From: Gracilibacter sp. BRH_c7a
GTDB lineage: Bacteria; Bacillota; Desulfitobacteriia; Desulfitobacteriales; Syntrophobotulaceae
NCBI GenBank assembly: GCA_001516055.1
Contig: LOEZ01000071.1
Location: forward strand, 1 to 64,000
Length of the DNA: 64,000 nt
Direction: 5' to 3'
In this document: positions 38,703-56,665 of the stretch, piece after piece
Numbering within the stretch: the stretch's first letter is position 1
Layout: each line of letters opens with the position of its first letter
The notes under the pieces: model-generated
What the model saw: the letters and a program-made list of their open reading frames with translations, nothing else
Database searches by the model: none
Told to the model about the DNA's origin: nothing
Position numbers and translations under genes: made by a program

Positions 38703-39992
38703 TCATTTATTAGTCTCCTGCAGTTGTAAGTCAGCACGTCTTTGATAGCGAAGATTCTCTTCGGGGACAAGACTGAGCTTTTCCCCTTTAAAGAGTTTTG
38801 CCAGACCAGCCTTACTGGAATACTTCTGCCTTTTGTGTAAGCTGTAGGAACGTTTAGGAGATATCTTAGTCGGTGAGGGTTCCTGATAAACACAGATAAT
38901 GCCTTCATAATTTCTTAGGACTACTTGATCATTAGATTGAGACAGCTGGTAGTTAGGCTGGAGAGGGATTTTTCCTCCACCACCGGGAGCGTCCACCACA
39001 AATGTAGGTACAGCCAGACCGGAAGTATGTCCCCTCAGCATCTCAATTATATGGATACCTGTATTAACAGAGGTTCGAAAATGTTCAATACCACGAGAAA
39101 GATCACACTGATACAGATAGTAAGGACGGACACGATTCTTAACCAGTTTATGCAATAATTCTTTCATTATGATCGAGCAATCATTTACCCCTTTGAGTAG
39201 GACAGACTGGTTTCCAAGTGGGATACCGCCATCTGCAAGAAGGGCTAGAGCCTGCTCGGCTTCTGGAGTTATTTCAACTGGATGGTTGAAGTGGGTATTT
39301 ACCCAGACTGGGTGATATTTGCTAATCATGCTAACTAATTCAGGGGTTATTCTTTGAGGCATAACGACTGGTGTTCTAGTCCCCAAACGGATAATCTCCA
39401 CATGGGGTATCTTTCTTAATGATGAAAGAACGAATTCTAACATACTGTCACTAAGTGCCAGGGCGTCTCCCCCTGAGACAACGACATCTCGGATTTCTTT
39501 ATGTGATGAGATATAGCTAATTGCTTTGAGGATGTCTTTTTTGCTTCTTTGACTATCGGTCGCACCCGCGAAACGGCGACGGGTGCAGTGGCGACAGTAC
39601 ATACCGCACTGATCAGTAACTAGTAAAAGCACTCTGTCCGGATAACGATGAGTCAACCCTGGTACAGGAGAATCGTCATCCTCGTGTAAAGGATCATCGG
39701 AATCTGCAGAGCATGATTGCAGTTCCATGATGGAAGGAATAGCTTGTTTACGTATAGGACAGTTCGGATTGTTCTGATCAATTAGAGAGAAATAGTAAGG
39801 GGTAATAGCCATCCGAAATTTTCGTAGACACTGGCGGATACCACTTTTTTCTGTAGAGTCAAGTTTCATTTTGAGTTCGAGTTGTTCTAAGGTACATATC
39901 CGATTAGCCATCTGCCAATGCCAATCATCCCAACCCGCGGGTCTTATTTCCTGCAGGCCTTCCTTGTGTAACTCCGATTTATGAGTATTCAT
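38703..39992 (-). CDS. kamA: Lysine 2,3-aminomutase (radical SAM, PLP)
   Basis: Interconverts L-lysine and L-beta-lysine. The radical-SAM cluster motif is CGMYCRHC. The PLP lysine lies in DAPGGGGKIPLQPNY, and the lysine-binding aspartates in YQCDLSRGIEHFRTSV and VVDAP, exactly as in clostridial KamA. Of the zinc ligands known in the C. subterminale enzyme, the one in GVNDC is kept, but the C-terminal C-x-C-x-x-C cluster is absent. ATG 39992 has AAGGAGG 7 bp upstream; the longer frame lacks one. No ablB acetyltransferase or lysine-fermentation (kamDE, kdd) genes are adjacent. Expression is predicted to be under the c-di-AMP riboswitch at 40112-40232. Confidence 0.93.
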   Translation of the reverse strand: MNTHKSELHKEGLQEIRPAGWDDWHWQMANRICTLEQLELKMKLDSTEKSGIRQCLRKFRMAITPYYFSLIDQNNPNCPIRKQAIPSIMELQSCSADSDDPLHEDDDSPVPGLTHRYPDRVLLLVTDQCGMYCRHCTRRRFAGATDSQRSKKDILKAISYISSHKEIRDVVVSGGDALALSDSMLEFVLSSLRKIPHVEIIRLGTRTPVVMPQRITPELVSMISKYHPVWVNTHFNHPVEITPEAEQALALLADGGIPLGNQSVLLKGVNDCSIIMKELLHKLVKNRVRPYYLYQCDLSRGIEHFRTSVNTGIHIIEMLRGHTSGLAVPTFVVDAPGGGGKIPLQPNYQLSQSNDQVVLRNYEGIICVYQEPSPTKISPKRSYSLHKRQKYSSKAGLAKLFKGEKLSLVPEENLRYQRRADLQLQETNK

Positions 39993-40018
39993 TTTTGTCC
40001 TCCTTAAATAAGTACAAT

Positions 40019-40048
40019 AAAAAATCACGCCATAAAAAGCCAGCGTGA
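40019..40048 (-). terminator. Riboswitch-controlled terminator upstream of kamA
   Basis: On the minus strand TCACGC / GCGTGA plus a G-U closes a loop, followed by six T. Its 5' half also pairs perfectly over 9 bp with the riboswitch 5' end (plus-strand 40037-40045 with 40223-40231), providing the antiterminator alternative. Confidence 0.75.
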
Positions 40049-40111
40049 GTGGTTAACCCTGTAAACAGAGCCAATCATCGTTAAGCATAAAACCTTAACG
40101 TGCCTTCTTTA

Positions 40112-40232
40112 AAGCGCTTACGAAGTTAGCTGACGGATTCGGACTAGAGAGGTAGCCCTACCGGCTATGCCGGATTCACCCCGAATTATTGGTTCCCCCG
40201 CTTTCACATACGTGAAACTCAGCGCTGGCTTG
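40112..40232 (-). promoter_or_regulatory. Cyclic-di-AMP riboswitch (ydaO/yuaA class) upstream of kamA
   Basis: Read on the minus strand, the conserved blocks of the class appear in order: GCGGGGGAACCAA, TTCGGGGTGAATCCGG, GGTAGGGCTACC, TCCGAATCCGTCAGCTAAC and TTCGTAAGCGCT. The 5' AGCGCT and 3' AGCGCT (self-complementary) close P1. Ligand binding stabilises P1, which frees the terminator stem at 40019-40048, so high c-di-AMP should switch kamA off, as for known ydaO riboswitches. A further hairpin (40079-40100) lies between aptamer and terminator. Confidence 0.93.
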
Positions 40233-40254
40233 TTCGATTAAATTGTTGGTATAT

Positions 40255-40283
40255 ATGATATCATATATTTGATGAAAAGTAAA
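40255..40283 (-). promoter_or_regulatory. Candidate promoter of the riboswitch-kamA transcript
   Basis: On the minus strand: TTTACT (40283-40278), 17-bp spacer, TATCAT (40260-40255). Transcription would start near 40248, about 16 nt before the aptamer. Confidence 0.5.
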
Positions 40284-40494
40284 CAAATCCTTTCTTTCAA
40301 GTTTTTGATATTTTGTGCGAGAAGTGTTAATCTATTCACTTACTAAGATAATTATGAAGAAATAACAGTAGATATGACAGCCAAAAAAAGGGAAGGACTG
40401 CTACGGGTGAAATAAATATTCTAACAAATGGGTTTGTAAGTATAGTATAATTTTCACTATCAACATTACTTGTATAAAGTTGGGAGTCTCTCAA

Positions 40495-42294
40495 GTGAAT
40501 AAGACTATCTCTTCTAAACAAAATATGGCTAATATTTTTAGATTCTTAAACAGCAAGGATTTCCGTCTCAAGATTTTCTTGGAAGGAATAATCGTAGGGC
40601 TGTGTGTGGGTGTAGTAATTTCAGCATTCCGCTTTCTCTTAGAGAAAGCGGAAAGATTTCGAGAATATAGCTATCTGCTCGCTCAAGAATATGGATTCTT
40701 CGAGATAGCGATTCGTTTTCTAACGCTGGCTATTTTAGCAATCGTTATTAATCAGATAATGGTAAGAGCTCCTCAGATATCCGGTAGTGGAATTGTGCAG
40801 GTCAAGGGTTCATTATTAGGACAAGTTAAGTCAAAATGGCTGAGAAACTTAGTTGGTAAATTTGTGGGAACAACATTAGTTATTGGGGCTGGACTTTCCG
40901 TAGGACGTCAAGGGCCTTCCGTTCAGATTGGAGCGTCTATAGGCCAGGGTGTGAGCAGGCTATTAGGAAGACTCAGGATGGAAGAAAAATATCTGGTTAC
41001 CAGTGGAGCTGCTGCAGGGTTAGCGGCAGCTTTTAATGCCCCGTTAGCTGGTGTAGTCTTTGCTCTAGAAGAGCTTCATAAGAATTTTTCTCCCGCTGTC
41101 TTGATGTCTGCCATGGGATCATCATTAGCGGCAGACTATGTGATGCGTCAGTTTTTTGGAAGTAAACCGATTATGGACTTCTCGGGGATTCCCGTCTTAC
41201 CTCAAAAATACTATATCTATTTAATCGGCTTGGGGATTGTCTGCGGCCTTGTAGGAGTTTTCTATAACAAGGCTTTGATTTCAAGCTTCAGAATATTTGA
41301 TAAGATAAGGAACAAAATCCCTGTTTTCTGGAAAGCAGGGATTCTTTTTATTCCTCTCTTTATAGCGGGAGTATTGGGATACCTTCTTCCTCAAGTTCTA
41401 GGGGGAGGAGAACAGCTTATAATATCTTTGAGCTCTCAAAACTATGCTTTTAAAGCGTTAGTAGTATTTGTTGTGGTGAAGTTCATTTTCACAATAATAA
41501 GTGCCGGTTCAGGTGCTCCTGGAGGATTATTTCTACCCATGCTCGTTATAGGAGCCTTGATAGGTAATATCTATGGAAATGTCTTGGGAATGTTATTTGA
41601 TATTAACTCAGAATTGATCTTTGATTTTGTCGTCTTTGCTATGGCAGCAGTATTCACTGCCGCTGTTAAGGCACCTGTAACAGGGAGTATTCTTATAACC
41701 GAGATGACAGGTTCCTTTGAACATTTGTTGCCGGTGATAATTGTATCTATGGTCGCCTACGTAGTGAGTGATATTCTAAGGACTAGGTCTATTTATGAAA
41801 ACATATATCAAATAACACTGGAGACGGCATCCTTGAATAGCCATAATTCAGCAAGCCTACTAAAAGATAATAATAAGCAAGCAGATGAAATCGAGCAAAA
41901 AACATGGGAACAATTAAAACAAGATACTTATAATATAGATACAGCTAAGCAAGAATTAACTTATAAACAAATCAAATATCAGGAAAAAGATAATATTATA
42001 ACAACAGTGAGGCCAGATGTGAACCTGGGAAAAAACAAGGGTCAAAAGATTGGTTCTAAGATTATCTTGGAAGAAGTAGTTCGGCTAAGCAGCCATATCG
42101 AAGGGAAAAGGATAAAGAGTATTGATTGGCCTGAGGGTAGTCTTCTTGTTAGTATTAGTCGCGGTGAAGAAGAAATAATTCCGCGGGGAAATACAAGGAT
42201 ATTTAATGGAGATTTTCTCTATGTTCTTATTGATCAAGGGCAAGAAAGGGAGTTCCGAAGTTTTATCTCAAGTTTATGTCAAGAAAATGATTAA
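40495..42294 (+). CDS. ClC-family chloride channel/antiporter with C-terminal RCK_C (TrkA_C) domain
   Basis: About 599 residues. The membrane domain carries the ClC anion-selectivity loops: ISGSGIVQV (GSGIP region), VGRQGPSVQIGASIGQG (GREGP region), AFNAPLAGVVFALEELHKNF and GSGAPGGLFLPML (GxFxP). The residue matching the gating glutamate E148 of E. coli ClcA is Gln139 here (codon CAA, 40909-40911), while the inner EE pair (LEEL) is kept. A ~70-residue charged linker leads to a TrkA_C domain (IILEEVVRLSSHIEGKRI...FLYVLIDQG). Start GTG 40495 has GGGAG 8 bp upstream; TTG 40480 is less likely. It is divergent from the c-di-AMP riboswitch/kamA unit. Confidence 0.92.
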   Translation: MNKTISSKQNMANIFRFLNSKDFRLKIFLEGIIVGLCVGVVISAFRFLLEKAERFREYSYLLAQEYGFFEIAIRFLTLAILAIVINQIMVRAPQISGSGIVQVKGSLLGQVKSKWLRNLVGKFVGTTLVIGAGLSVGRQGPSVQIGASIGQGVSRLLGRLRMEEKYLVTSGAAAGLAAAFNAPLAGVVFALEELHKNFSPAVLMSAMGSSLAADYVMRQFFGSKPIMDFSGIPVLPQKYYIYLIGLGIVCGLVGVFYNKALISSFRIFDKIRNKIPVFWKAGILFIPLFIAGVLGYLLPQVLGGGEQLIISLSSQNYAFKALVVFVVVKFIFTIISAGSGAPGGLFLPMLVIGALIGNIYGNVLGMLFDINSELIFDFVVFAMAAVFTAAVKAPVTGSILITEMTGSFEHLLPVIIVSMVAYVVSDILRTRSIYENIYQITLETASLNSHNSASLLKDNNKQADEIEQKTWEQLKQDTYNIDTAKQELTYKQIKYQEKDNIITTVRPDVNLGKNKGQKIGSKIILEEVVRLSSHIEGKRIKSIDWPEGSLLVSISRGEEEIIPRGNTRIFNGDFLYVLIDQGQEREFRSFISSLCQEND

Positions 42295-55804: not shown

Positions 55805-56665
55805 ATGCTCCATCAGGGAACTTTATTTGTATGCCCTACTCCTATAGGGAATCTGCAAGATATTACTTTACGGGTATTAGAAACGCTGAAGATGGTTGAT
55901 TTCATTGCAGCAGAAGATACAAGACACTCTCGGAAACTCCTAAACCATTATGATATTACAACCCCAACCTTAAGTTATCATGAACATAATGAAAGGAAAA
56001 GGATGGGGGAGCTTTTGGACGGACTCAAGCAAGGAAAGAATGTAGCTCTGGTCTCGGATGCCGGAATGCCTGGAATCTCTGACCCGGGTCATATTCTGAT
56101 TAAGAAGTGTCAGGAAGAAAATATTAAGGTAGATGTTTTGCCGGGACCCAATGCTGCCTTAACCGCGCTCGTTCTGTCCGGAATGCCGACGGAAAGTTTT
56201 GTATATTTAGGGTTTCTGCCTACAGGAAGATCAGAGCGGAGAAGGATTCTTGAGAAAGCGGCCTTTCTTACTCACACTTTAATTTTATATGAGGCACCTC
56301 ATAAGTTGATTAGAACCCTTCAAGACATTCAGGAAACCATGGGAGATCGAATAGTAGTAGTTACCCGGGAATTAACTAAAATTCATCAGAATGTTCATCG
56401 AGGAAAAGTGAGTCTACTGGTAGAAGAGTTTAAGACAACGCCTCCTAAGGGGGAGTGTTGTCTTATAATAGAAGCATATGAAGAAAGAATAGAGAGAGGA
56501 GAACCTTCTCTTTGGATTAAAGATATGAAGCAGATAATACTGGAAGGGAAAGATAATAAAGAAGCCATGAAAGTGGTAGCAAAAAAATATGGGATAAGCA
56601 AAAGAGATGTATACAGAGCATATCTCGATGAAGATGAAAGAGAAAATAAAAAAGAAGGTAAATAA
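55805..56665 (+). CDS. rsmI: 16S rRNA (cytidine-1402-2'-O)-methyltransferase
   Basis: SAM-dependent methyltransferase acting on C1402 of 16S rRNA. The tetrapyrrole-methylase fold is clear: FVCPTPIGNLQDITLRVLETL, AEDTRHSRKLLNHY, SDAGMPGISDPG and LPGPNAALTALVLSGM. ATG 55805 has GGAGGG 6 bp upstream; the frame is open to a TTG at 55787. The terminator at 56651 overlaps its last codons. Confidence 0.95.
   Translation: MLHQGTLFVCPTPIGNLQDITLRVLETLKMVDFIAAEDTRHSRKLLNHYDITTPTLSYHEHNERKRMGELLDGLKQGKNVALVSDAGMPGISDPGHILIKKCQEENIKVDVLPGPNAALTALVLSGMPTESFVYLGFLPTGRSERRRILEKAAFLTHTLILYEAPHKLIRTLQDIQETMGDRIVVVTRELTKIHQNVHRGKVSLLVEEFKTTPPKGECCLIIEAYEERIERGEPSLWIKDMKQIILEGKDNKEAMKVVAKKYGISKRDVYRAYLDEDERENKKEGK

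Follow-up and report, generated by a model that had tools for sequence, protein, structure and literature searches.

A predicted c-di-AMP OFF riboswitch in the leader of a clostridial lysine 2,3-aminomutase gene

The ydaO/yuaA class of c-di-AMP riboswitches (RF00379) is known from Nelson et al. 2013 (cited in PMC9337991), and the closest described counterpart of the locus reported here is in Dehalobacter sp. CF, where White et al. 2022 found tandem Na+/c-di-AMP riboswitches on ablA (PMC9337991). In vitro transcription of that leader showed that c-di-AMP promotes termination, making it an OFF switch, and N-epsilon-acetyl-beta-lysine was proposed as the osmolyte (PMC9337991). Operons of ablA and ablB for N-epsilon-acetyl-beta-lysine have been reported from methanogens, Chlorobium, and Bacillus (references 42 and 43 in PMC9337991), and low c-di-AMP is a signal of osmotic distress (PMC9337991). 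An initial annotation of our locus had presented the link between this riboswitch class and beta-lysine as new. Because White et al. 2022 had already shown a c-di-AMP riboswitch on ablA, with the same osmolyte conclusion (PMC9337991), that claim of novelty is not supported.

We analyzed a stretch of 64,000 nucleotides from Gracilibacter sp. BRH_c7a, referred to here as the window, whose genome (G000) is a 4.1 Mb assembly of 98 contigs, 95.8% complete with 3.1% contamination, and compared it with one other genome of the same genus (G059). We consider it highly likely that the window carries a transcriptional OFF riboswitch of the known c-di-AMP class on a lysine 2,3-aminomutase gene, through which low c-di-AMP would lead to a beta-lysine solute. 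The leader and its gene comprise the following parts:

40255-40283, minus strand: putative sigma-70 type promoter, TTTACT-17-TATCAT, with aligned hexamers and spacing in G059
40100-40234, minus strand: c-di-AMP (ydaO/yuaA) riboswitch aptamer, a full-length RF00379 match
40217-40231, minus strand: left-hand antiterminator strand, AAGCCAGCG-c-UGAGU, overlapping the P1 5' strand CGCU (40221-40224), from pairing analysis
40115-40118, minus strand: P1 3' strand AGCG, partner of CGCU in the bound state, from the Rfam alignment
40037-40050, minus strand: terminator 5' arm, ACUCACGCUGGCUU, able to pair with 40217-40231, from pairing analysis
40025-40048, minus strand: intrinsic terminator hairpin of 8 pairs, followed by TTTTTTATTG (U-tract), from terminator analysis
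39999-40005, minus strand: Shine-Dalgarno AAGGAGG, read from the sequence
38703-39992, minus strand: kamA/ablA, lysine 2,3-aminomutase, 429 aa, ATG at 39992, assigned by TIGR03820, alignment to 2a5h, and the Asp/Asp substrate motif

The complete aptamer that the initial annotation had recognized on the minus strand is borne out by a search of the whole window, in which 40100-40234 matched RF00379 over model positions 1-134 of 134 with 100.6 bits (E 1e-22; gathering score 38). A relaxed scan of 39900-40700 returned no other credible RNA family. For the promoter proposed together with the aptamer, the motif alone is at chance level, with 2 sites found versus 1.9 expected, but the aligned site in G059 reads TTTACA-17-TATTAT. 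An 18-nucleotide perfect AT-rich palindrome, ATATATGATATCATATAT, lies over the -10 box at 40255-40272 on the minus strand and is probably due to chance, since it is absent from G059.

The alternative pairing noticed earlier between the aptamer and the terminator is exact, and longer than had been described. Positions 40223-40231 and 40037-40045 form nine pairs, all Watson-Crick, and past one bulged base (40222) the helix extends by five more (UGAGU with ACUCA) to a total of 14. This one-bulge duplex of 40217-40231 with 40037-40050 is predicted at -23.0 kcal/mol, a value reached by 5 of 2000 dinucleotide-shuffled aptamers and 11 of 2000 shuffled arms. Because the CGCU of P1 lies within the left-hand antiterminator strand, the 14-bp helix and P1 are mutually exclusive, and the terminator (40048-40025) sits in the leader of the downstream gene, as befits an expression platform. 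By inspection, a wiring through the right shoulder of P1, as in Dehalobacter, would allow only four contiguous pairs here (AGCG with CGCU), and for this reason the left-shoulder wiring is preferred. For the ligand-free leader, the predicted minimum-energy fold is the antiterminated one, at -71.4 kcal/mol versus -67.3 kcal/mol for the best fold with P1 and the terminator formed, both energies omitting pseudoknot and ligand contributions. The gap of about 4 kcal/mol, which ligand could tip, is suggestive of switching and not proof of it.

We infer that this leader binds c-di-AMP and responds to it in the following way. When c-di-AMP is absent, the P1 5' strand and its flank would pair with the terminator 5' arm (14 bp, one bulge), permitting read-through into kamA; when c-di-AMP is bound, P1 would close, the terminator arm would be freed, and transcription would stop. 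This OFF logic, already anticipated in the initial annotation, appears well supported by the exclusive pairing, the modeled ligand-free fold, and the in vitro behavior of the Dehalobacter sp. CF leader. Since a low c-di-AMP level is a sign of osmotic distress, beta-lysine would be produced when the cell needs a solute.

Between the two genus members, the stretch from aptamer to terminator is nearly unchanged, including identical terminator and antiterminator strands, and the promoter, aptamer, and Shine-Dalgarno are also kept, while the sequence 5' of the promoter has diverged. More widely, CCAGCG in the aptamer 5' strand (P1) occurs together with CGCTGG in the terminator arm or region in four of the 38 leaders compared and in none of the other 34. 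The four are those of the window, G059, G042, and Heliorestis acidaminivorans, which are all the complete leaders of the window's KamA protein clade, so the shared pairing may represent a single evolutionary event. Taken alone, the Heliorestis pairing is not significant, being reached by 94 of 500 shuffles. We assigned the terminator arms manually for the window leader and the three leaders closest to it; the automatic terminator finder chose a wrong hairpin for the window leader and, in a few other leaders, a wrong hairpin or no hairpin at all.

The assignment of kamA to lysine 2,3-aminomutase also holds. The open reading frame at 38703-39992 scores 604.8 bits against TIGR03820 (AblA; curated cut-off 525.4), and the solved lysine 2,3-aminomutase 2a5h aligns with its product over 402 residues (580.7 bits), with the CxxxCxxC, QCDLS, and VVDAPGGGGK motifs retained. 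The homologues that we fetched split cleanly by two substrate positions into Asp/Asp (lysine type) and Lys/Asn (glutamate type), and the window protein has Asp/Asp (QCDLS, VVDAPGGGG), the equivalents of Asp293 and Asp330 being conserved. We take these two Asp to be the residues that hold the lysine side chain, and the PLP lysine and radical-SAM CxxxCxxC to be functional sites; all of them are present in the alignment to 2a5h. The C-terminal Cys cluster of 2a5h, which presumably binds structural zinc, is not retained. As a member of the wider KamA family, the protein also scores 490.9 bits with TIGR04368 and 246 bits with TIGR03821, and it might be asked whether it is EpmB (EF-P modification) or a glutamate 2,3-aminomutase instead of a free-lysine aminomutase. 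Those two scores, however, fall under their curated cut-offs (650 and 369.3), the protein is under the cut-offs of the glutamate, arginine, and EpmB models while over that of TIGR03820, and its substrate motif is Asp/Asp, not the Lys/Asn of glutamate-type enzymes, all of which makes such an identity extremely unlikely.

The proposal of a beta-lysine derivative as the regulated solute is sustained in that N-epsilon-acetyl-beta-lysine is a plausible end product and ablB occurs in the genome, but the acetyltransferase gene is not beside the window kamA, where a convergent, unrelated gene lies directly downstream. The one ablB detected in G000 directly follows a second AblA (735 bits) on another contig, in an operon at which we found no c-di-AMP aptamer:

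C61 of G000, 64421-66497: second ablAB operon, no riboswitch (loci L078, L079, L081)

A third paralog, on contig C53, is of the glutamate type (K/N motif), and no aptamer was found at that gene. G059 has the same gene set (solo kamA, ablAB, and a glutamate-type gene), so the set in G000 is not contamination. A second RF00379 copy in G000 (L002 1501-1690, minus strand, equivalent to C19 237294-237483) precedes a gene for an amino-acid ABC transporter substrate-binding protein (PF00497).

Phylogenetically, the window KamA belongs to a five-member clade with full support, in which every member has the aptamer (in one case cut off by the end of a contig), and the sister group is Desulfosporosinus-type AblA without it. 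In members of both groups ablB normally adjoins ablA, and both genus members, unlike nearly all relatives, are missing this neighbor. The second AblA clusters with proteins from Chlorobium and Desulfobulbaceae, apart from the other AblA of the order, which suggests that the second ablAB was acquired by lateral transfer. Most simply, the gene under riboswitch control would be the older ablA, from whose side ablB has been lost, and it may share the second operon's AblB; the likeliest product would be N-epsilon-acetyl-beta-lysine, with AblB supplied in trans from that other locus.

The loss of the adjacent ablB in both genus members and the seemingly foreign second AblA could also be read as signs that the aptamer is an intact-looking relic and kamA a decaying orphan after the second ablAB took over. 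We find this very unlikely, because G000 and G059 agree far more closely in the leader than 5' of the promoter, with terminator and antiterminator unchanged, and because the protein has intact catalytic motifs and is 88% identical in G059. An unlikely reading, if a less improbable one than decay, is that the riboswitch is real and kamA serves lysine catabolism (fermentation via beta-lysine) and not osmolyte synthesis. Such a role would agree with the lack of ablB beside the window kamA and with a second ablAB operon that already covers osmolyte synthesis, and this riboswitch-free operon could supply osmolyte regardless of the window switch. Other members of the window KamA's clade nevertheless adjoin ablB, one relative has the operon aptamer-dapB-ablA-ablB, c-di-AMP control suits osmoregulation, and the one other KamA-family gene class under c-di-AMP control in the order is that of the beta-glutamate enzyme glutamate 2,3-aminomutase. 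We therefore retain the osmolyte reading, with beta-lysine as probably a salt-protecting compound.

A supply of the ligand must also be considered. Essential glmM usually adjoins cdaA. In a search of 25 family genomes for diadenylate cyclase (PF02457), 21 had a match above the cut-off, and there was no match in the G000 or G059 assemblies, which also lack detectable glmM. As glmM is absent from the same two assemblies, the missing cyclase is likely a shared assembly gap, and we did not accept a genuine absence. The divergent neighbor of kamA (window 40480-42294, plus strand) encodes a ClC chloride transporter whose C terminus carries a TrkA_C (RCK_C) domain, and G059 has the same neighbor. Binding of c-di-AMP is frequent among RCK_C domains. 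For streptococcal EriC, however, no signal was obtained with the RCK_C domain in isolation (PMC5919688).

A survey of kamA leaders, as the initial annotation had suggested, shows that the window is not an isolated case, and the association of aptamer and lysine 2,3-aminomutase recurs in several clostridial lineages. Among 74 genomes of the order, the aptamer leads ten lysine-type genes in nine genomes; five of these ten genes, in genomes G052-G055, also have a Na+ aptamer ahead of the c-di-AMP aptamer, which is the published tandem arrangement. Outside the order, it lies before lysine-type genes in seven further named records, counting cases in which it leads an operon, with examples in Heliorestis, Desulforadius, Pelotomaculum, and others. 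Operon-leading aptamers stand before dapB-ablA-ablB (L041) and before a glutamate-type gene followed by ablA and ablB (L101). The presence of the aptamer requires at least five changes on the tree, and so it has been gained or lost repeatedly.

The same survey brought up the glutamate-type genes of the order, 19 of 51 of which have RF00379 in their leader. Divergent pairing with a GntR-TrkA_C protein is seen for 48 of the 51. Such a protein has the same architecture as BusR, which in streptococci is a repressor that binds c-di-AMP (PMC5919688). Wherever a genome of the order has both genes, they are paired in this way (48 of 48 genomes), and 18 of these genomes also have a c-di-AMP riboswitch in the leader. 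The pair in G000 is located as follows:

C53 of G000, 114297-114908, minus strand: GntR + TrkA_C (BusR-like) regulator (locus L076)
C53 of G000, 115436-116506, plus strand: glutamate 2,3-aminomutase-type gene (locus L076)

The promoters of most glutamate-type genes (e.g., L052, L061, L066-L074) contain the conserved, operator-like inverted repeat ACAAC-N17-GTTGT, a candidate binding site for the BusR-like protein, which is also found in one riboswitch-controlled ablA leader (L132, Pelotomaculum, upstream of 2483). The EAM promoters in the window's own genus lack the repeat, and a search of the window for the operator pattern gave one exact match, at 56435, and no match in the promoter of kamA. 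Many glutamate-type leaders have a terminator 5' arm that pairs with the aptamer strand near position 18, with bases that have changed yet still pair (e.g., UUCCCAAG with CUUGGGAA; UUUCCAAA with UUUGGGAA). Our literature search found no paper in which c-di-AMP riboswitches are connected with BusR or with the synthesis of beta-glutamate, the sole exception being a passing mention of eam under Na+ riboswitches.

These patterns may mean that beta-amino-acid solute synthesis by KamA-family enzymes is a general c-di-AMP output in this clostridial order, wired repeatedly and through two kinds of sensor. The sensors would be RNA switches on beta-lysine genes, in several lineages and with at least two antiterminator wirings, and on many beta-glutamate genes, together with a BusR-like repressor beside almost every glutamate 2,3-aminomutase gene. 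We regard the case for and against this joint reading as evenly balanced. If it is true, many beta-glutamate genes are controlled twice by one messenger, with a riboswitch and a BusR-like repressor on the same genes. The survey suggests a testable c-di-AMP-controlled beta-lysine/beta-glutamate regulon, and the link between the GntR-TrkA_C protein and glutamate-type genes may be worth more than the kamA leader finding.

Set beside the known systems, the window leader has all conserved blocks of the ydaO/yuaA class and matches its covariance model at full length. Known targets of the class are transporters or wall hydrolases, whereas the target here is a biosynthetic enzyme, a departure already published for Dehalobacter. 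With Dehalobacter sp. CF the window shares the aptamer class, the target enzyme, an intrinsic terminator 3' of the aptamer, the OFF logic (shown there in vitro), and the osmolyte reading. The two differ in that the Dehalobacter c-di-AMP aptamer lies after a Na+-I aptamer that has a separate terminator, while no Na+-I aptamer (RF03071) was found in the window leader or the G000 genome. In Dehalobacter, the terminator left arm pairs with nucleotides that include the right shoulder of P1, in contrast to the left shoulder here. In addition, ablB follows ablA in the Dehalobacter-like genomes G052-G055 but not at the window kamA. Relative to the ablAB operons, the window KamA is likewise an AblA equivalog, but the sole detected AblB is not adjacent, being encoded on another contig beside the second AblA. 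The window leader is a one-input counterpart of the Dehalobacter gate with different wiring, a further example and not a new kind of system. It is useful for comparing the ways in which one aptamer couples to a terminator, and it supports the published view that c-di-AMP governs the synthesis of solutes as well as the uptake of ions and solutes.
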